In this document: piece after piece, positions 53-34,592 of the stretch
Position numbering within the stretch: position 1 is the first letter of the stretch
How the letters are laid out: every line of letters starts with the position of its first letter
Source of the DNA: Candidatus Cloacimonadota bacterium
GTDB taxonomy: Bacteria; Cloacimonadota; Cloacimonadia; JGIOTU-2
DNA: 43,047 nucleotides
Assembly (NCBI GenBank): GCA_023129415.1
Contig: JAGMCF010000178.1
Span: 1 to 43,047 of the forward strand
Direction: 5' to 3'
Notes under the pieces: model-generated
Told to the model about the DNA's origin: nothing
Seen by the model: only the letters and a program-made list of their open reading frames with translations
Databases searched by the model: none
Position numbers and translations under genes: made by a program

Positions 53-1318
53 TCATTCTGTATAGAAAATTGCTTTTACAGGATCGATTTTAGAAGCTTT
101 GTATGCTGGATAGAAACCGGAAATAAATCCTACAATAATTGCAAAAATCAATCCAATTATAATTCCCATCATTGGAATAGAAACTTCAACTTCCATTTTT
201 GAAGTTATGAATTTGATTAAAATGAAAGCTAATCCTGAACCAAATATTCCTCCGATAAAAGCTAATGTTATAGATTCAAAAAGGAAATGTGCAAATATAT
301 CTCTATTCTTTGCTCCGATACTTTTTCTGATACCAATCTCCTTCATTCTCTCTCTAATAGAAATCAATAAAATACTGAAAAGTCCAATCCCACCTGTGAA
401 AAGTGATATACTTGATATACATAATAATATTATATTCCAATTTTTTAGAAACCCTTGAATTTCTTGTCTGATTTCAAGCATTCTCTGGCTAATATCTCTA
501 ATTTCAATATCATCTGCCATATTGTGTGTAGCAAGAAGGAGTTGTTTTGCTTGATTAAAAACATTTCCAACTTTTTCAGAATCAGTTGCTTTGATCCAGA
601 TATTATCAATTTGCATATTTGGTCTTAAATATATTGCAGCACATTTTGATGGGATAAAACAGCTTTCATGATCACGCTTTCTTTCCCAGATATTACCTCT
701 AACAGTCTTATTAGGGTCATCTAATCCTTCATCTTTAAGAACACCAACAATTTTCAATCTAATATCACCAATCGAAATAGATTTTCCAATTGCATCAATT
801 TGCGAATAGAATTTTTTCTCTATTGATGAGCCAATTATACATACATTCTGACCTTCATTTTGTTCGATAATACTAAAAATTCTTCCCTTGCCAATAATGT
901 AATTTTTACTGTTGAAAAAGGGATTGTTTAATCCATTCAATCTAATCTTACTTGATTTACCATTAATAACACATACTCTTTCATCATTTATACATGGATA
1001 GATATGTTTAGTATTATTTAGATTTTCACTCAATACTTCATAATCTTTATAGGTTAAATTTTTAAATCGAAGGTCAGAAGTATATTTTTTTAACTTACTT
1101 TTTTCGGAATTTGGAAATGAAGAGTATAAAACTATTACATCATCATATCCAAGTGAACTAATTGATTCTTCAATAAGATGTTTCATCGCATTAACAGAAG
1201 AAAACATAGTGGTTACTGCAGCGACCCCTATAACAATTCCAGCAAGAGTAAGAATTGAACGCAATTTATGAGATAAAATACTTTTTATGCCAGCTACTAA
1301 AGGTTCAACGAATTTCAT
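53..1318 (-). CDS. MacB/FtsX-type ABC transporter permease
   Basis: This 421-residue inner-membrane protein has the layout of MacB-family permeases. There is one N-terminal membrane segment (about residues 20-42, rich in AGIVIGVAAVT), then a roughly 230-residue extracytoplasmic domain. Three C-terminal membrane segments (about residues 295-410) form the FtsX-like core, with the family stretch MKEIGIRKSIGAK between the first two. Such permeases pair with a LolD/MacB-type ATPase to export peptides or lipoproteins or to transmit force across the envelope. No ATPase gene is visible here and it may lie beyond the left end. The start codon overlaps the topA stop by four bases (ATGA), so the two genes are translationally coupled. 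The substrate cannot be told from sequence. Confidence 0.88.
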   Translation of the reverse strand: MKFVEPLVAGIKSILSHKLRSILTLAGIVIGVAAVTTMFSSVNAMKHLIEESISSLGYDDVIVLYSSFPNSEKSKLKKYTSDLRFKNLTYKDYEVLSENLNNTKHIYPCINDERVCVINGKSSKIRLNGLNNPFFNSKNYIIGKGRIFSIIEQNEGQNVCIIGSSIEKKFYSQIDAIGKSISIGDIRLKIVGVLKDEGLDDPNKTVRGNIWERKRDHESCFIPSKCAAIYLRPNMQIDNIWIKATDSEKVGNVFNQAKQLLLATHNMADDIEIRDISQRMLEIRQEIQGFLKNWNIILLCISSISLFTGGIGLFSILLISIRERMKEIGIRKSIGAKNRDIFAHFLFESITLAFIGGIFGSGLAFILIKFITSKMEVEVSIPMMGIIIGLIFAIIVGFISGFYPAYKASKIDPVKAIFYTE

Positions 1319-3579
1319 GTAATCAACTCTTTTTTACAATTCAAACAGATGATTTTTTTTATCCCATTTTTACTTATTGATTTTTCAAACATAGTATCGA
1401 CACCACAATCAGGACATTTCAAATTGATAGGTTTATAATTAGTTATGAACTTACATTTGGGATAATTTGAACATCCATAAAAAGTTTTTCTGGATTTCTT
1501 ACTCTTTCTTTCTAATAATTCGCCATCACATAAAGGACATTTCAAGCCAGTAGAAAATGCTTTTGTAAATTTACATTTTGGATAGTTGCTACACGCATAA
1601 AACTTTCCAAATTTTCCGATTTTTAATACCAGTTTTCCCCCACATTTAGGGCATATTTCATCTGTTTTTTCCTCTTCAATTTCAATAATTTCAACTTTAC
1701 CATTTTCATTTAGTTTAAAGTTTTTTGTATTTTTGCATTTTGGGAAATTAGAGCAAGCAAGAAATTGACCATTTCTTCCCCATTTGATTATCATTTGGGC
1801 ACCGCATTTTTCACATTTAATATCACTCACTTTTGCTAGATTTGCTCTTTCTGCTTTAATATCAATATTCTTTAAAATCTTAATAAATTCTTCATAGTAA
1901 TTTTCTAATATTTGTAGCCAGTTAGTAGTTCCATTCTCGATTTCATCAAGACGATTTTCCATTTCACGAGTAAATGATACATTAAAGAAATCAGAAAATT
2001 TCTTTATCAGGAACTTTTCTACTTCCATACCTAACTCGGTAGGATAGAATTTTTTCTTTACAAGATTTACATATTTTCGTGCAAGCAATGTTGAAATTAT
2101 TGGTGAGTAAGTGCTGGGTCTCCCAATTCCTTCTGATTCTAATTTTTTAACTAAAGCAGCTTCAGTATATCTTGCTGGAGGTTTTGTGAAATTTTGATTT
2201 TTATTAAGTTTTATTAATTCAAGCTCATCCATTACATTAAGTAAAGGCATTTTATCGGCGATATATTTGATAGTTATATATGGATAACATTTCATAAATC
2301 CATCAAATTCAATAGTACTTCCATTTGATTCAAATAATCCATCACCGGCTTTTATTAAAACCTGAGTCATATTAACTTTTGCACAAGCCATTTGAGTAGC
2401 AACAAATCTCTGCCAGATAAGTTTGTACAATTTGTATTGATCTTGTGATAAGAAATCTTTGATTGACTCTGGAGTTCTAAATGATGAAGTTGGACGAATA
2501 GCTTCATGTGCGTCTTGAGCTTTATTTTTATTTTTATAAATTCTTTTGAATGGATTTGAATATTTTTCTGGAAACCTTTCTTTAATTAGTTTCTTCAATT
2601 CAGCATTTGCCCTATCTGACACTCGCACAGAATCAGTTCTCATATATGAAATAAGACCAATATTTTTATCCTTAACATTGACTCCTTCATAAAGTTGTTG
2701 AGCAATCCTCATTGTCTTTTTGGTTGAAAAACCCAATATTTTTGAAGCTTCTTGTTGTAATGTGCTTGTGATATAAGCAGGAAAAGGTGAGATTATTTTG
2801 CTTTCTTGTTTGATATCTGCGACAATATACTTTTCTTTTTCTAGTTTATTGAAAATTGCATCAGCTTCAGATTCATTAGTTAACTTAATTAATTTTTCTT
2901 TATATTTTTTCAAGATTGCTTTAAATTTAGTGTCCTTTCCCATTAGATGATCCCGATATATCGGGACTAACGGGACAGGTTTTAATTCTGCATTGATAAT
3001 CCAATATTCCTGAGGGACAAATTTTTGAATTTCTTCTTCCCTCTCGCAAAGAAGTCTTAACGCAACTGTCTGCACTCTACCAGCAGAAAGGTTTTTGGCA
3101 ATTACTTTCCATAGTACTGGACTAACTTTATATCCGACAATGCGGTCTAAAATCCTTCTGGTTTGTTGTGCATTGACCTTATTTTCATCAACTTGGGCTG
3201 GGGATTTTATGGATTCTTGAATTGCTTCCCTTGTAATCTCATTAAAAACAACTCTAAAAATTGGTTGTTTAGGAACAGATTTTTTTAGAATTTCTTTTAA
3301 ATGCCAGGCAATTGCCTCTCCTTCTCTGTCATTATCAGAAGCCAAAAAAACCTTTTCGGATTCCTTTGCTCTTTTTATGATTTGATTAACAATTTTCTTT
3401 TTATCAGGATTAAGGACATAGTACGGTTTGAAATTATTTTCAATATTAATTCCAAATTCCTTTTGGGGTAAATCGCGTATATGACCCATTGAAGCAAGGA
3501 TTTCGAAATCTTTTCCTAAGTATTGCTTGATAGTTTTTGATTTGGTTGGAGATTCAACAATCATTAAATTTTTTGGCAT
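1315..3579 (-). CDS. topA: DNA topoisomerase I (type IA)
   Basis: The 754-residue protein relaxes negative supercoils by single-strand passage. The TOPRIM domain shows Glu9 (IVESPTKSKTI) and the acidic pair Asp82/Asp84 in ASDNDREGEAIAWH. The catalytic tyrosine is Tyr312 in SYMRTDS. Four C-terminal zinc-finger repeats follow from about residue 605, each with CxxC pairs such as CEKCG, CPKCG, CPLCD and CPDCG; the first three end in the usual CSNxPKC. The length is normal for an enzyme with a zinc-ribbon tail. Residues 205-210 are encoded by a perfect 16-base palindrome that also occurs between genes elsewhere in the window. It lies in a loop after EYWIINAELKP, so the enzyme appears to tolerate a small in-frame insertion. 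The gene overlaps the downstream permease by ATGA. Confidence 0.97.
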   Translation of the reverse strand: MPKNLMIVESPTKSKTIKQYLGKDFEILASMGHIRDLPQKEFGINIENNFKPYYVLNPDKKKIVNQIIKRAKESEKVFLASDNDREGEAIAWHLKEILKKSVPKQPIFRVVFNEITREAIQESIKSPAQVDENKVNAQQTRRILDRIVGYKVSPVLWKVIAKNLSAGRVQTVALRLLCEREEEIQKFVPQEYWIINAELKPVPLVPIYRDHLMGKDTKFKAILKKYKEKLIKLTNESEADAIFNKLEKEKYIVADIKQESKIISPFPAYITSTLQQEASKILGFSTKKTMRIAQQLYEGVNVKDKNIGLISYMRTDSVRVSDRANAELKKLIKERFPEKYSNPFKRIYKNKNKAQDAHEAIRPTSSFRTPESIKDFLSQDQYKLYKLIWQRFVATQMACAKVNMTQVLIKAGDGLFESNGSTIEFDGFMKCYPYITIKYIADKMPLLNVMDELELIKLNKNQNFTKPPARYTEAALVKKLESEGIGRPSTYSPIISTLLARKYVNLVKKKFYPTELGMEVEKFLIKKFSDFFNVSFTREMENRLDEIENGTTNWLQILENYYEEFIKILKNIDIKAERANLAKVSDIKCEKCGAQMIIKWGRNGQFLACSNFPKCKNTKNFKLNENGKVEIIEIEEEKTDEICPKCGGKLVLKIGKFGKFYACSNYPKCKFTKAFSTGLKCPLCDGELLERKSKKSRKTFYGCSNYPKCKFITNYKPINLKCPDCGVDTMFEKSISKNGIKKIICLNCKKELIT
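2951..2966. repeat. In-frame 16-bp palindrome inside topA
   Basis: TCCCGATATATCGGGA is a perfect palindrome inside the topA reading frame, encoding residues 205-210 (VPIYRD in context). The identical 16-mer lies between genes at 28555-28570, and relatives occur at 10425, 14609, 25288, 26292 and 27671. Its reuse outside genes marks it as a dispersed element and not a topoisomerase motif. Confidence 0.85.
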
Positions 3580-14475: not shown

Positions 14476-14510
14476 TAAATAATATAATATTTACTACATC
14501 TAAGTATTAA

Positions 14511-14590
14511 TTATTCAAGTTCCGCAGGAGTGGAAATTACCGAATAAATCATATTTAACTTTTTATAATATCTTCTGCGAAAAATGAGTA
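14511..14590. repeat. 80-bp direct repeat, copy A
   Basis: This 80-base sequence matches 15130-15209 in the same orientation at about 72 of 80 positions. Its ends carry CCGCAGGA and TTCTGCGAA, which form an imperfect inverted pair. Read on the minus strand it still encodes FFAEDIIKS followed by a stop, equivalent to the PyrH C-terminus encoded by copy B. It is either a duplicated pyrH 3' end or a dispersed repeat that pyrH has captured. Confidence 0.8.
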
Positions 14591-14608: not shown

Positions 14609-14624
14609 TCCCGACAAGTCGGGA
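14609..14624. repeat. Palindrome TCCCGACAAGTCGGGA
   Basis: Seven-base arms surround a two-base loop. The sequence is a variant of the dispersed TCCCGAT-type palindrome and lies downstream of the broken four-helix-bundle gene. Both arms differ from the commonest form at the same paired position, so the stem is conserved. Confidence 0.7.
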
Positions 14625-14662: not shown

Positions 14663-15086
14663 TCATTTTTTCTGCTTTGATTTAATTATAATTGATGAGA
14701 AAATTAAATTAAGTTCATTGGCTTCTTTCCAATATATTTTTGCTTCATCTTTTCATGCTATAGGCAGATCAGCCTTTGGCTGATAATTGTGGAACTGCTT
14801 TTGCAATCATCCTCATCTGGCTACGGCTTGCTTCGCCAAGACGAGACCAATGTTTTGATTCTTTCGATTCTTTTTTGCAAATACCTATTTTATGTTCGAA
14901 ATCTCTTTTTGACTCTGCACAGTCTGCTTCAGAATAATTGGCACCAACACTTGTGCCCGCTTTAACTAATTGAGTAATTAGAGATAGAGTTATCGGATTT
15001 TTTGGGATTTTTTTAGCAAATTCGATAATATCCTCACCAAATTTTGCAGTTCTCTCCTCTAAATCGAATTTCTTTTTATTTGCCAT
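14663..15086 (-). pseudogene. Four-helix-bundle protein (IVP family), disrupted
   Basis: The open frame 14769-15086 (105 codons) begins as a typical four-helix-bundle protein of the 23S rRNA intervening-sequence family (KNPITLSLITQLVKAGTSVG, YSEADCAESKRDFEHKIGIC, KESKHW). Two insertions break it. The first, 33 bases at 14814-14846, adds in-frame residues 81-91 (SRLGEASRSQM) and has imperfect inverted arms. The second, about 31 bases at 14753-14783, contains ATCAGCCTTTGGCTGAT and brings a stop and a frameshift. Beyond it the family's usual ending is still readable in another frame (KDEAKIYWKEANELNLIFS, from 14752 downward). Family function is unclear. The gene sits inside the direct-repeat-bounded insert between pyrH and frr. 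Confidence 0.8.
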
Positions 15087-15129
15087 TTGTCATTTGATAT
15101 TTCATTAGAAATTAGATATTTGTAATTAG

Positions 15130-15209
15130 TTATTCAAGTTCCGCAGGATTGAAAATTAATGAATATATCATAGTTAACTTTTTATAATATCTTCTGCGAA
15201 ACATGAGTT
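15130..15209. repeat. 80-bp direct repeat, copy B (overlaps pyrH end)
   Basis: This is the second copy of the 80-base repeat. Its right part, read on the minus strand, supplies the last codons of pyrH (SCFAEDIIKS and stop). Recombination between copies A and B would remove 619 bases, including the whole four-helix-bundle gene, and restore a shorter pyrH-frr gap. Confidence 0.8.
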
Positions 15210-25218: not shown

Positions 25219-25962
25219 TTATATTTTTAATTTATGGATAATATAGTTTTCAATAGATTTAAAAATCACTTGTCCACCTGTCCGCCGTCCCGATATAATC
25301 GGGATGGAAGGCGGGTCAGTCCAATTTAATGCAGGGTCAGAAGCTCTTTCCGGATGAGGCATCATACCAAGGACATTTCCTTTTTCATTGATTATTCCAG
25401 CAATGTTTTCTAATGATCCATTAGGATTAGCATTATCAGTCACATTTCCATCTTTATCGCTGTATTGAAATACAATCTGTTGATTATCTATTAATTTTTG
25501 TAATCCAATTTTATCAATAAAATAATTTCCTTCATTATGGGCTATGGGAATATCTAATACATTTCCTTTTTGTAATAAATTTGTAAAAGGGGTGTTATTA
25601 TTTATAATTTTTATATATTGATGTTTGCAAACAAAAAGTAGAGATTTATTTTGCATCAAAGTTCCAGGTAATAATCCAGTTTCAGTAAGCATCTGAAATC
25701 CATTGCAAATACCAATAACAAGACCACCTGATTTGGCAAATTTAATAACCTCTTGCATAATTGGACTGAATTTCGCTATTGTTCCTGAACGCAAATAATC
25801 TCCATACGAAAATCCACCAGGTAGAATAACACAATCAGGTTTTTTTAATTTTGTGTCTTTATGCCATACATAATCAGCATCAGCATGCATTATTTTTTTT
25901 ACAGCATAATAACTATCATAATCACAGTTTGAGCCAGGAAATATTATAATGTTATATTTCAT
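25219..25962 (-). CDS. purQ: FGAM synthase glutaminase subunit PurQ
   Basis: The 247-residue class I glutamine amidotransferase subunit releases ammonia for conversion of FGAR to FGAM, the fourth step of purine synthesis, with PurS and PurL. The nucleophile is Cys86 in GICNGFQML, and the rest of the triad is His203 and Glu205 in PHPERASDP. Residues 217-229 (PPSIPIISGRRTG) come from a 39-base palindromic module inserted in frame about a dozen residues after the triad. Without it the sequence would run NWTD-GQVIFKSI, the usual ending. The protein is correspondingly longer than the usual 220-230 residues. The start overlaps purS by ATGA. Confidence 0.96.
   Translation of the reverse strand: MKYNIIIFPGSNCDYDSYYAVKKIMHADADYVWHKDTKLKKPDCVILPGGFSYGDYLRSGTIAKFSPIMQEVIKFAKSGGLVIGICNGFQMLTETGLLPGTLMQNKSLLFVCKHQYIKIINNNTPFTNLLQKGNVLDIPIAHNEGNYFIDKIGLQKLIDNQQIVFQYSDKDGNVTDNANPNGSLENIAGIINEKGNVLGMMPHPERASDPALNWTDPPSIPIISGRRTGGQVIFKSIENYIIHKLKI
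25277..25315. repeat. Nested palindromic module in frame inside purQ
   Basis: The outer layer is CCTGTCCGCCG (25277-25287) with TGGAAGGCGGG (25305-25315). The inner layer is TCCCGATATAATCGGGA (25288-25304). The 39 bases equal 13 codons. At 27692-27721 the same outer layer encloses only TAATACTA, so the inner palindrome here looks like an insertion into the loop of the outer one. Confidence 0.85.
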
Positions 25963-27624: not shown

Positions 27625-27670
27625 TGTTGAATCCTTTCTGCAACCTTTTGCCACAGAGGTTCATCCTTCG

Positions 27671-27721
27671 TCCCGATTTATCGGGACTACGCCTGTCCGC
27701 CGTAATACTATGGAAGGCGGG
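27671..27721. repeat. Two palindromic modules side by side upstream of purB
   Basis: TCCCGATTTATCGGGA (27671-27686) is followed five bases later by CCTGTCCGCCG-TAATACTA-TGGAAGGCGGG (27692-27721). The same two modules are nested one in the other inside purQ. Degenerate CACAGA-type units flank them (27649-27658 and 27729-27744). The block lies in the purB leader, where it could affect mRNA structure. Confidence 0.8.
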
Positions 27722-27749
27722 GAGAATGGACACTGATTGCACAGAGTAT

Positions 27750-28453: not shown

Positions 28454-28629
28454 TTAGCCACGAACAACACGAACTGACACGAACAAAATCTTATTCATAA
28501 AATTGAACCTTTTTAAATAATTATTAATTTTCATGCTCCTTTGCCTGCCCTGTGTCCCGATATATCGGGATTATTTCACTGGGGTTAAATCTTTTCCTAT
28601 TTAATGGGGTGTCCCGATTTGTTTTCGGG
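28454..28629. repeat. Repeat-rich gap between lgt and the lipoprotein gene
   Basis: The region holds CACGAA-type units (28454-28484), the perfect palindrome TCCCGATATATCGGGA (28555-28570, identical to the one inside topA) and CCCGATTTGTTTTCGGG (28613-28629), a looser hairpin. The motif TGGGGTT/TGGGGTG recurs between them. No coding sequence is seen. Confidence 0.7.
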
Positions 28630-32105: not shown

Positions 32106-34592
32106 TTACCTAATAAGCAACATCTTCTTCACTTCATTGTAATTCTCAGTCTTGAGTTGATAGAAATATACACCTGTTGGAAGATTGTCCACATTCCACT
32201 TTGCTGTTCCATATCTGGCTTCAATAGTTTCAATGAGCTGGCCAGCAACATTGTAGATTCTGATTTCTACTGGCTCTGCCTTTAGTCTGCCTTTGATTGC
32301 ATATTCAATGGTTGTGGAACCTTTAAATGGATTGGGGTGGTTTCCAAGTCTGTTTTCCTTAAAGTCATTTACATATCCACCTTCACCTTCTTCTGGTGTT
32401 AAGCTGATAGAAGCATAAACATGTGTCTCTCCACCAAAATCAATGGATTCTAACCAGTAATAATAGGTTATATCAAACACCACAGGATTATCATCAATAA
32501 ATGTATACTCCTTTGGTTCAGAAGTTGTGCCATATCCTGGAATTAAATCATAATTGATTCTCATTGCTGTGCCAAAATCATCATCAGTATTACGATAAAC
32601 ATTGAATCCATTCACATCGGTTTCACTTGCAGTTGCCCAGTAAATGGAAGTATAACCATTTTCAGCAACATAAGTGGCTGTAAAAGCTGCAAGCTCCACG
32701 GGGAGTGTGGCAGTTCCCGTATCTGTAATGAGGTCTACTACACCATAGGAATCGTAGAAGTAAACATCTCCAAAGGTTAGAGTACCATGAGTGGCGACAA
32801 GAGCCTGAAATACAATGTCTGCAATAAGACCTTCTCCTTCAGGGGCTTGAGCTGGATCTGTGCCTGCTAAGGTATAAGCTATACTTAATACCCCTGGCGT
32901 TGAAGTATCAATCATCCAGCCTAATGCCTCGCCACCATTAGAAGTAAGAATGTTCGGTTCATAAGTAATGGGATTTGTAGGAGTAGCTGTTACATAAGCA
33001 AGCTCTGTCGGGTCATAGATTACCTCAAACTCATAGGTATCTAAATTTTGAACATCAGTACAATACACATCTACCTGTATGTAAGTTCCTCCAGGTTGTG
33101 AGGGTATGCTGGTCAGATTCTGGTTACCATAAGTGGTTGCATCTAGATCAAATACTATGCCTGCATTCTCGTTTGGACCTTTCCCATTCTTTCCACCTTG
33201 ACCAGATTTTGGAGGTGTACCTTCGTGCCAGTGATCACCAAACACCTGCAAGTCAGCAGCATCTATAATCTGGAGTCCACTAGTAGGATCAGGTGTAGGA
33301 CTCAGATTGTAGAGCGGATCCCAACCTGGGCTGTTCTCATCAAAATGCCAGTGGTCACCAAAGAGCTGTAAATCTGCAGCATCTACATAGCCATCTGAAT
33401 TGAAATCACCAATGATTTGTTCACCCGCTACTTTCAATAACCAGATATCAATATTGAAAGTAGGATCTGCTGAATACCCAGCGATAGCATAAGATCCATC
33501 ACTTGTTATATCTACCGACATGGCTTTGTCTAGCATACCTCTCCCATAAGCACGTGTCCAGATGGTATCTCCGTCTGCGTCTGTTTTTACTACATAGAAA
33601 CTTGATATCATGCTTGGTCCAAAAGAATCCGTATCGCCTGCCAATATAAACCCGCCATCACTGGTCTGTTTGACAGAATAGGCTACATCGTTTTCTACTC
33701 CTCCGTAGACCCGGGTCCAGAGGGTATCGCCATTGGATTCCGTTTTTATCAAATAGAATTCAAAACCAGTCGCTCCAGGAGGATTGGCAAGCCCGGCAAT
33801 TATATATCCTCCATCCGCGGTCTGTTGAACTGAGTTTCCACCGTCGGCGAAGTCTCCACCGTACATCTCAGTCCAGAGCGTATCTCCAGCACTGTCCGTC
33901 TTAACTAGATAAACATCAGAACTTCCTCCTGCTCCAAAAGATGAAGTGCGTCCTGCGATTATAAACCCTCCATCATCTGTTTCCTGGATAGAACGTGCTT
34001 CATCGTTTAGCATTCCTCCATAAGTTCTGGTCCAGAGGGTATCTCCATTGGCTTCAGTTCGCACCACATACATATCCACATCATCTATACCACCACTAAC
34101 AGGGCCGGTATACCCAGCCACTATGAATCCACCGTCAGCGGTCTGCTGAACGGAAAGTCCCCAATCATAAGAACTTGCGCCGCCATAAGTATTTGTCCAA
34201 ATCGTATCACCATTTGCGTCCGTTCTTACCAAGTAAACATCCTTATCACCAGCGCCATAAGACTTGGTATAACCAGCTACGATATACCCGCCATCATTAG
34301 TCTGTTGAATGGAGTAGCCTTCCTCATTGGCTGAACCTCCATAAGTTCTCGTCCATATAGTATCACCATTTGCGTCAGTCTTAACCACATAGAAGTCAGT
34401 ACCACCAGCACCGAAATAATCGGTTATTCCAACGAGTATAAATCCGTCATCAACGGTTTGCTGAACACAACTACCAACTTCTACGCCAGGTCCTCCATAA
34501 GTTCTTGTCCATAGGGTGTCACCCGGTTCCTGAGCCACAACTCCAGATGCGATAAATAGGCCCAGAACTATTGTTAACATAGTATTTTTCAT
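32106..34592 (-). CDS. Secreted propeller-dockerin-cohesin protein with T9SS sorting domain
   Basis: This 828-residue exported protein has a signal peptide (MLTIVLGLFIASGVVAQ), then seven repeats of about 50-60 residues each starting GDT(L/I)WTxxYGG, which would form a seven-bladed beta-propeller. A dockerin-like segment (about 395-455) has one canonical calcium loop, DFNSDGYVDAAD, and a degenerate partner IIDAADLQVFGDHW. A cohesin-like beta domain follows (about 480-630; NLDTYEFEVIYDPTELAYV). Then come an FN3-like domain (LPVELAAFTATY, WATASETDVNGFNVYRN) and the sorting domain (NHPNPFKGSTTIEYAIK to the MLLIR end). It should pass SecA/SecYEG and then type IX secretion to the surface. GC is visibly higher than in all neighbours, which may reflect transfer or amino-acid bias. 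It has its own ribosome-binding site (AAGGAG) and terminator. Confidence 0.88.
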   Translation of the reverse strand: MKNTMLTIVLGLFIASGVVAQEPGDTLWTRTYGGPGVEVGSCVQQTVDDGFILVGITDYFGAGGTDFYVVKTDANGDTIWTRTYGGSANEEGYSIQQTNDGGYIVAGYTKSYGAGDKDVYLVRTDANGDTIWTNTYGGASSYDWGLSVQQTADGGFIVAGYTGPVSGGIDDVDMYVVRTEANGDTLWTRTYGGMLNDEARSIQETDDGGFIIAGRTSSFGAGGSSDVYLVKTDSAGDTLWTEMYGGDFADGGNSVQQTADGGYIIAGLANPPGATGFEFYLIKTESNGDTLWTRVYGGVENDVAYSVKQTSDGGFILAGDTDSFGPSMISSFYVVKTDADGDTIWTRAYGRGMLDKAMSVDITSDGSYAIAGYSADPTFNIDIWLLKVAGEQIIGDFNSDGYVDAADLQLFGDHWHFDENSPGWDPLYNLSPTPDPTSGLQIIDAADLQVFGDHWHEGTPPKSGQGGKNGKGPNENAGIVFDLDATTYGNQNLTSIPSQPGGTYIQVDVYCTDVQNLDTYEFEVIYDPTELAYVTATPTNPITYEPNILTSNGGEALGWMIDTSTPGVLSIAYTLAGTDPAQAPEGEGLIADIVFQALVATHGTLTFGDVYFYDSYGVVDLITDTGTATLPVELAAFTATYVAENGYTSIYWATASETDVNGFNVYRNTDDDFGTAMRINYDLIPGYGTTSEPKEYTFIDDNPVVFDITYYYWLESIDFGGETHVYASISLTPEEGEGGYVNDFKENRLGNHPNPFKGSTTIEYAIKGRLKAEPVEIRIYNVAGQLIETIEARYGTAKWNVDNLPTGVYFYQLKTENYNEVKKMLLIR

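Follow-up and report, generated by a model that had tools for sequence, protein, structure and literature searches.

The window analysed here comprises 43,047 nucleotides of a Candidatus Cloacimonadota genome (G000 below). On its minus strand, positions 25219-25962 encode PurQ, a protein of 247 amino acids assigned by its open reading frame and translation, by the Pfam domain GATase_5 and by a relative in the PDB (3d54_D). This gene hosts a nested palindromic module of 39 bp (25277-25315) that makes up codons 217-229. The module consists of a left outer arm CCTGTCCGCCG (25277-25287), which occurs 20 times in the genome, an inner palindrome TCCCGATATAATCGGGA (25288-25304) that occupies the tip of the outer hairpin and belongs to a family of 198 exact copies, and an exactly matching right arm TGGAAGGCGGG (25305-25315).

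Further members lie elsewhere in the window. Upstream of purB, a composite intergenic repeat (27658-27729) has the form GGTTCATCCTTCG[inner]CTACG[30-bp module]GAGAATGG, other copies of which are found with and without the 30-bp module. It contains the inner palindrome TCCCGATTTATCGGGA (27671-27686) and the outer module in a 30-bp form with the short tip TAATACTA (27692-27721). Intergenic DNA also carries an inner palindrome at 28555-28570 and the inner-type palindrome TCCCGACAAGTCGGGA at 14609-14624. The second host gene in the window is topA (1315-3579, minus strand; 754 amino acids, with the Pfam domains Topoisom_bac, Toprim and Zn_ribbon_Top1). As a separate observation, an open reading frame of 828 amino acids (32106-34592) contains seven copies of a 56-nt segment between 33541 and 34547, with a spacing of 156-165 nt, and putatively specifies a protein of repeated domains.

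Filled, empty and extended sites in purQ

The two forms of the outer module share their arms and differ in what lies between them: the 30-bp form is CCTGTCCGCCG + TAATACTA + TGGAAGGCGGG, while the 39 bp in purQ are CCTGTCCGCCG + TCCCGATATAATCGGGA + TGGAAGGCGGG, a palindrome of two layers. The preliminary description had recognized the outer pair at both places, and the matches are indeed exact; neither form appeared in 100 shuffles. It had also depicted the purQ element as a palindrome inserted in the loop of another. The nesting stands, but the inner palindrome stands in place of the 8-nt tip and is not added to it, with a net gain of 9 bp. When folded as a single DNA strand, the 39-mer forms one uninterrupted hairpin of two layers (-11.9 kcal/mol, z -3.7). 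No Rfam family was matched in the region.

The claim that the 39 bases add 13 codons in frame holds in the PurQ translation. The first added residue lies 12 after Glu205 of the HPE motif, and the block (residues 217-229) is situated between this catalytic motif and the C-terminal DGxxIF segment. Since the tail downstream of the insert (IFKSIENYIIHKLKI) is conserved and unaltered, the reading frame of purQ is still read through. The alignment to Thermotoga maritima PurQ (3d54_D) ends at residue 199 of 213 of the latter, just short of the insert, and an AlphaFold prediction run without an alignment gave an unusable model (mean pLDDT 33). The insert may form an exposed loop.

In all other genera inspected, PurQ lacks the 13-residue block, in agreement with the expected absence from related proteins. 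The nearest empty site, which is close to perfect, is found in a member of another genus (G005), where the sequence reads GCTGA^TGGACAAGAA as compared to ACTGA[39 bp]TGGACAAGTG in G000. The insertion point is GA^TGG (GA^TGGACAA in G005) and the insert measures exactly 39 bp; between the filled site of G000 and the empty site of G005, neither a target duplication nor a loss of bases is seen. No PurQ match was found in G001, a member of the same genus with a rated completeness of 96%.

In the sister species G002, purQ has this insert at the identical codon, enlarged in its distal arm by another palindrome of 33 bp (11 codons), again in frame: GGGACGG[TCGCCGACGCTCCATAGCTTTGGCAACGGAGCG]CGGACAGG. 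Variants of this 33-bp unit occupy the same internal point of the module at one locus in G000 (L176) and, in a module that has a different tip, at one in G001 (L208). Since the 39-bp composite is also found ready-made elsewhere, purQ in G000 need not have been hit twice; the extension of 33 bp in G002 represents a true second step. Furthermore, the left arm of the G002 element has changed from CCTTCC to CTGTCC, a form that is unique among the 107 module arms collected. Pairing is thereby restored: CTGTCC and GGACAG match each other across the element in its enlarged form. Such an arm change would be the product expected from quasipalindrome template switching, a class of mutation that is the subject of two papers (PMC7202029, PMC8794818).

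A modular family in one lineage

The inner palindrome, TCCCGAT-n-ATCGGGA, is present in 198 exact copies in G000, and its closest relatives G001, G002, G003 and G005 contain 105, 38, 62 and 95 copies, respectively; these counts, like all comparisons here, come from draft metagenome bins, with a contamination of 7% for G000. None is found in G004, which is of the same family, while other family members have 0 to 25 copies and the rest of the class 0 to 18; no copies were obtained with reversed-pattern controls. Of the outer module, G000 has 20 copies (control 0), three with a TCCCGAT tip and one with a TCCCGAA tip; in one instance it forms a tandem array with a period of 30 bp. Both modules are thus recurrent elsewhere in the genome, and in relatives as well, as had been predicted. 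The proliferation of the palindromes is lineage-specific within Cloacimonadota. A cross-phylum scan retrieved comparable hairpins, with different tips, from Neomarinimicrobiota, Bacteroidota, Ignavibacteria, Patescibacteria and others, some of these matches being chance matches in GC-rich genes; the TCCCGAT tip was confined to Cloacimonadota records.

Within the window, inner palindromes start at 2951, 14609 (a variant), 27671 and 28555, against an expectation of 0.02 and at most 1 in 100 shuffles. The copies at 27671, 28555 and 2951 had initially been taken to stand alone. All three are present and that at 28555 is intergenic, but the copy at 2951 is the core of a nested insert in topA, and that at 27671 lies in the composite repeat beside the module at 27692.

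Hairpin tips covary as pairs (ATAcTAT, AAAcTTT, GAAcTTC). In a third type of repeat, CCATTCTCCGTAG[X]CGAAGGATGAA, the position X is taken by a wide variety of sequences, TCCCGAT palindromes among them, and at two loci (L226, L228) by a complete copy of the repeat itself. Some copies of it have the 30-bp module at one exact point, TTCTC^CGTAG, where other copies lack it.

Most of the inner-type palindromes (46 of 55) lie outside open reading frames, though 86% of the sample is coding. Such a distribution would suit transcription terminators or RNA-stability hairpins maintained by selection, of which purQ merely happens to carry one, and a T run does follow some inner copies, for example GTCCCGATTTATCGGGACTTTTTTT (L183:17371). 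However, the T run is lacking at most copies, including the one in purQ, copies inside the coding genes topA and purQ would have no such use, and relatives manage without the palindromes. This explanation is therefore highly improbable.

Inserts in other genes and the extent of nesting

Orthologues were aligned over a sample of 430 kb of G000, about 725 kb of G001 and other loci; gene names in this sample were assigned by eye, except for purQ, topA and the DUF362 gene (Pfam). In topA, alignment and folding identify a nested palindrome of 42 bp (2938-2979) that supplies 14 amino acids in frame, is absent from G001 and has the inner copy at 2951 as its core. The topA gene of G001 contains a different palindrome of 15 bp, some 15 codons from the site of the G000 insert. 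A small four-helix-like gene (14769-15086) carries about 30 bp (CTGGCTACGGCTTGCTTCGCCAAGACGAGA, approximately 14817-14846; 10 residues in frame) that are absent from a relative (L192). An 84-nt direct repeat with 90% identity (14506-14589 and 15125-15208) flanks this gene, which suggests that the segment, absent from the syntenic stretch of G001, is mobile or duplicated.

The same behaviour is seen in other genes. A sigma factor gene has a 15-bp palindromic insert, in frame and absent from a relative, and ftsI/PBP of G001 has 36 bp in frame, with two palindromes inside TCCGCCAG...CTGGCGGA. A layered insert of 84 bp, likewise in frame, lies in the DUF362-ferredoxin gene of G003, TCCGCCAGCTG[CCTGTCCGCCG[TCCCGATAA[TCCCCGATTTAATCGGGGA]GGGA]TGGAAGGCGGG]GCGGA; in G001, this gene has a 36-bp insert elsewhere. 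Among internal gaps of at least 4 amino acids between orthologues, 9 of 52 are palindromic or GC-rich as compared to 4.4% of random segments, with a p-value (about 4e-4) that is approximate because purQ is counted twice among the nine and one of the gaps is GC-rich only. It had been proposed that small palindromes insert into each other and into a coding gene while the frame is kept, and this is now seen at several independent genes.

In another four-helix-bundle gene, the module occupies the same orthologous site in two species: G000 has 30 bp with the short tip (PPSIVLRRTG) and G003 has 39 bp with a nested tip (PPSIPISSGRRTG), so that the tip was changed in place with the frame kept. The same gene is interrupted downstream by a GIY-YIG open reading frame, and it may therefore no longer work.

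To assess how far nesting goes, inner palindromes were excised and their flanks were scored for a stem of at least 5 bp, with swapped flanks as the control. By this measure, 12 of 65 inner palindromes are nested in a stem in G001 (3.7% for swapped flanks, p 4e-6) and 7 of 55 in G000 (5.8%, p 0.04). Nesting is real, with about one inner copy in six lying within a recognizable outer stem. A blastn search for orthologous palindromic indels gave four clean cases, one of them inside a hairpin of the empty allele, too few for statistics. One case of clean orthologous nesting is a CCCCGATTTAATCGGG hairpin that is intact in G000 (10432) and into which a palindrome of 23 bp is set in G001. Some of the nesting consists of exchanged hairpin tips and not of plain insertion. 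The idea that outer modules generally sit at the centres of other palindromes was rejected (0 of 35 in the family, 4 of 67 in other phyla). At loci from Gracilibacteria (L122, L123), Rickettsiales (L111) and Bradyrhizobium (L089), a CCTGTCCGCC...GGCGGA hairpin lies inside repeats of the CGTCATNCCCGCGA... (CGTC) type, and the nesting of related hairpins may thus be much wider across phyla.

It could be imagined that no mobile element is involved at all and that the palindromes arise and change in place, through ectopic gene conversion and polymerase template switching (quasipalindrome correction). Changes of this sort are indeed seen: an arm in G002 has a compensating change, tips covary, and one tip was changed in place. 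However, the occurrence of the same 30-39 bp at unrelated empty sites, in purQ, topA and the composite repeat, is left unexplained, and we consider this alternative quite unlikely.

Hairpins of the same type are also encountered in RNA genes. In peripheral helices of RNase P RNA, TCCCGAT-type hairpins occur in differing combinations in G005, G001, G003, G002 and G000; as these helices vary anyway, this is suggestive only. The RNase P RNA of G003 (L289, G003:C127:4201-4786) gives a match of 586 nt, compared to about 390-430 in relatives, and has two long insertions in peripheral helices. Beside an intact tRNA-Asp gene, G000 has truncated copies with the anticodon or T arm replaced by TCCCGA hairpins, and G001 and G005 have similar fragments with other loops. 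These surroundings were inspected at L256 (G000:C235), L272 (G001:C31) and L273 (G005:C191); GIY-YIG open reading frames lie between the copies in G000. No palindrome was seen in tmRNA. Insertions in RNA genes, such as those for RNase P RNA and tmRNA, have also been reported for the palindromic elements of rickettsiae (PMC2229807).

The position of these reading frames between tRNA-Asp fragments with TCCCGA hairpins (L256), and of another about 100 bp from the in-frame module in a four-helix gene (L257), might indicate that a GIY-YIG endonuclease element mobilizes the palindromes or makes the breaks through which they enter. We regard this as very unlikely, as other GIY-YIG reading frames lack such palindromes in their 150-bp flanks and there are 12 GIY-YIG genes as opposed to 198 palindromes. 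Nuclease reading frames of this type, about 88 amino acids long, interrupt four-helix-bundle (IVP-type) genes at one and the same point (L009/L257, G000:C205 about 2600-3000; L260, G000:C256). The inverted repeat GCCCAGTGTAAT...ATTACACTGGGC marks their boundaries, and they look like a homing element of these genes.

Possible routes of spread and comparison with known systems

The most probable reading, with a probability of about 0.8, is that the 39 bp in purQ are a copy of a very small, non-autonomous, modular palindromic family that has spread in one lineage of Cloacimonadota. The identity and the history of the module are well supported. Insertion without target duplication, together with the hairpin shape, suggests single-stranded intermediates. 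The element would move as a folded single strand, and a putative single-strand enzyme would insert the hairpin in trans. Tips and helices might then be exchanged between hairpins, for which recombination of single strands or template switching by a polymerase offers the best explanation; conversion may also have diversified the modules. Such exchanges would lead to palindromes within palindromes. In genes, selection would retain copies only if their length and frame can be tolerated, in the manner of Rickettsia palindromic elements.

The leading candidate for the enzyme is a tyrosine HUH/Y1 transposase acting in trans, although we put it forward only tentatively and think it somewhat improbable. 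It is a different proposal that the palindromes are ordinary REP elements moved by genome-encoded REP-associated tyrosine transposases (RAYTs). G000 has 12 Y1_Tnp genes and most relatives have some, insertion without target duplication would fit, and palindrome density correlates with Y1 density over 41 genomes (rho 0.51). On the other hand, the correlation disappears within the family (rho 0.21, p 0.41), G004 combines seven Y1 genes with 0 TCCCGAT palindromes, the hairpins that flank the Y1 genes are of other kinds, TCCCGA palindromes lying close to just 2 of 12, and the outer module has no terminal GTAG. An ordinary REP origin thus seems unlikely. The possibility that the modules adjoin Y1 transposases was ruled out, since the Y1 genes carry hairpins of their own. 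At five loci of G000 (L022, L023, L024, L025 and L028), these belong to separate hairpin families (e.g., CTGTCATGGACCATTCCATGACAG, CCACCAACTAAAGTTGGTGG), and the Y1 genes apparently represent several separate REP/IS200-type systems. With their own hairpins and a copy number that is unlinked within the family, none of the Y1 genes could be tied to the modules as a mobilizing enzyme.

It is possible, but doubtful, that the exchange is directed by structure, hairpins of DNA and of RNA genes being swapped regardless of sequence by a stem-recognizing enzyme or repair route. Such a process would cover palindrome tips, RNase P RNA helices and tRNA arms alike and, if it exists, palindromes would accrete inside one another and inside proteins. 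For the small mobile family favoured here, the units are small enough to dissect, which opens two questions to experiment: by what means repeats of 30-40 bp are moved when no enzyme is obvious, and whether proteins gain new segments from these inserts. With its exchanged tips, the mosaic also offers natural material for studies of hairpin recombination and template switching.

In their small size, the modules resemble the GTAG/CGTC REPs, which measure 20-40 bp, comprise subfamilies with complementary stem and loop changes and are in part intragenic (PMC3733652). REPs of the CGTC class have no dedicated transposase (PMC3733652). In contrast, the ends of the present module carry neither tag (CCTG...GCGGG, with varying flanks) and the nesting is multi-level. 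Classical MITEs share their terminal inverted repeats with a resident transposon and are flanked by a target-site duplication; no such duplication is seen at purQ, and the search for partners covered the Y1_Tnp and GIY-YIG families. The small dispersed repeats of Nostoc treated by Elhai et al. 2008 are very small bacterial repeats that reportedly insert into one another, and are alike in these respects.

The palindromes of Volvox carteri mitochondria and plastids are comparable in that short palindromes within palindromes build up larger composites, but those repeats are organellar and nearly all intergenic or intronic (PMC2670323), whereas here bacterial protein genes are also invaded. The GC clusters of yeast mitochondria likewise consist of hairpin units that merge and shuffle, with filled and empty sites; their units have about 42 nt, one lies within var1 (rps3), and putative AG or ACT target duplications have been described (PMC4478555), in contrast to the purQ site. 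The hallmark of both organellar systems, a palindrome inside a palindrome, is found at purQ, topA, the DUF362 gene, L226 and L228.

The chief known sources of protein-coding palindromes are Rickettsia and Wolbachia. The open-access literature yielded nothing relevant on such repeats in Cloacimonadota, nor any report of minute size, nesting and protein-coding insertion combined in a bacterium outside Rickettsiales. Rickettsia palindromic elements (RPE) are 105-146 bp long and lie in frame in protein genes, and protein-coding palindromes are also described for Wolbachia (PMC2229807). As with RPE, the palindromes studied here lie within conserved protein genes with the frame kept, in intergenic DNA and perhaps in RNA genes, both systems are without a known mobilizing enzyme, and in-frame inserts with empty sites in relatives occur in purQ, topA and others. 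They differ from RPE in that the units measure 15-42 bp, mostly 30-42 bp, with composites of up to 84 bp, and are layered inside one another, and in that the host belongs to Cloacimonadota. The preliminary suggestion of an RPE-like, modular system in a distant phylum is therefore upheld for the in-frame behaviour, the modularity and the nesting, each seen at several genes, while size and taxon set the family apart from RPE themselves. It adds an independent case of protein-coding palindromes from a distant phylum, in which the states before, after and after again can be compared at one gene of the purine pathway.
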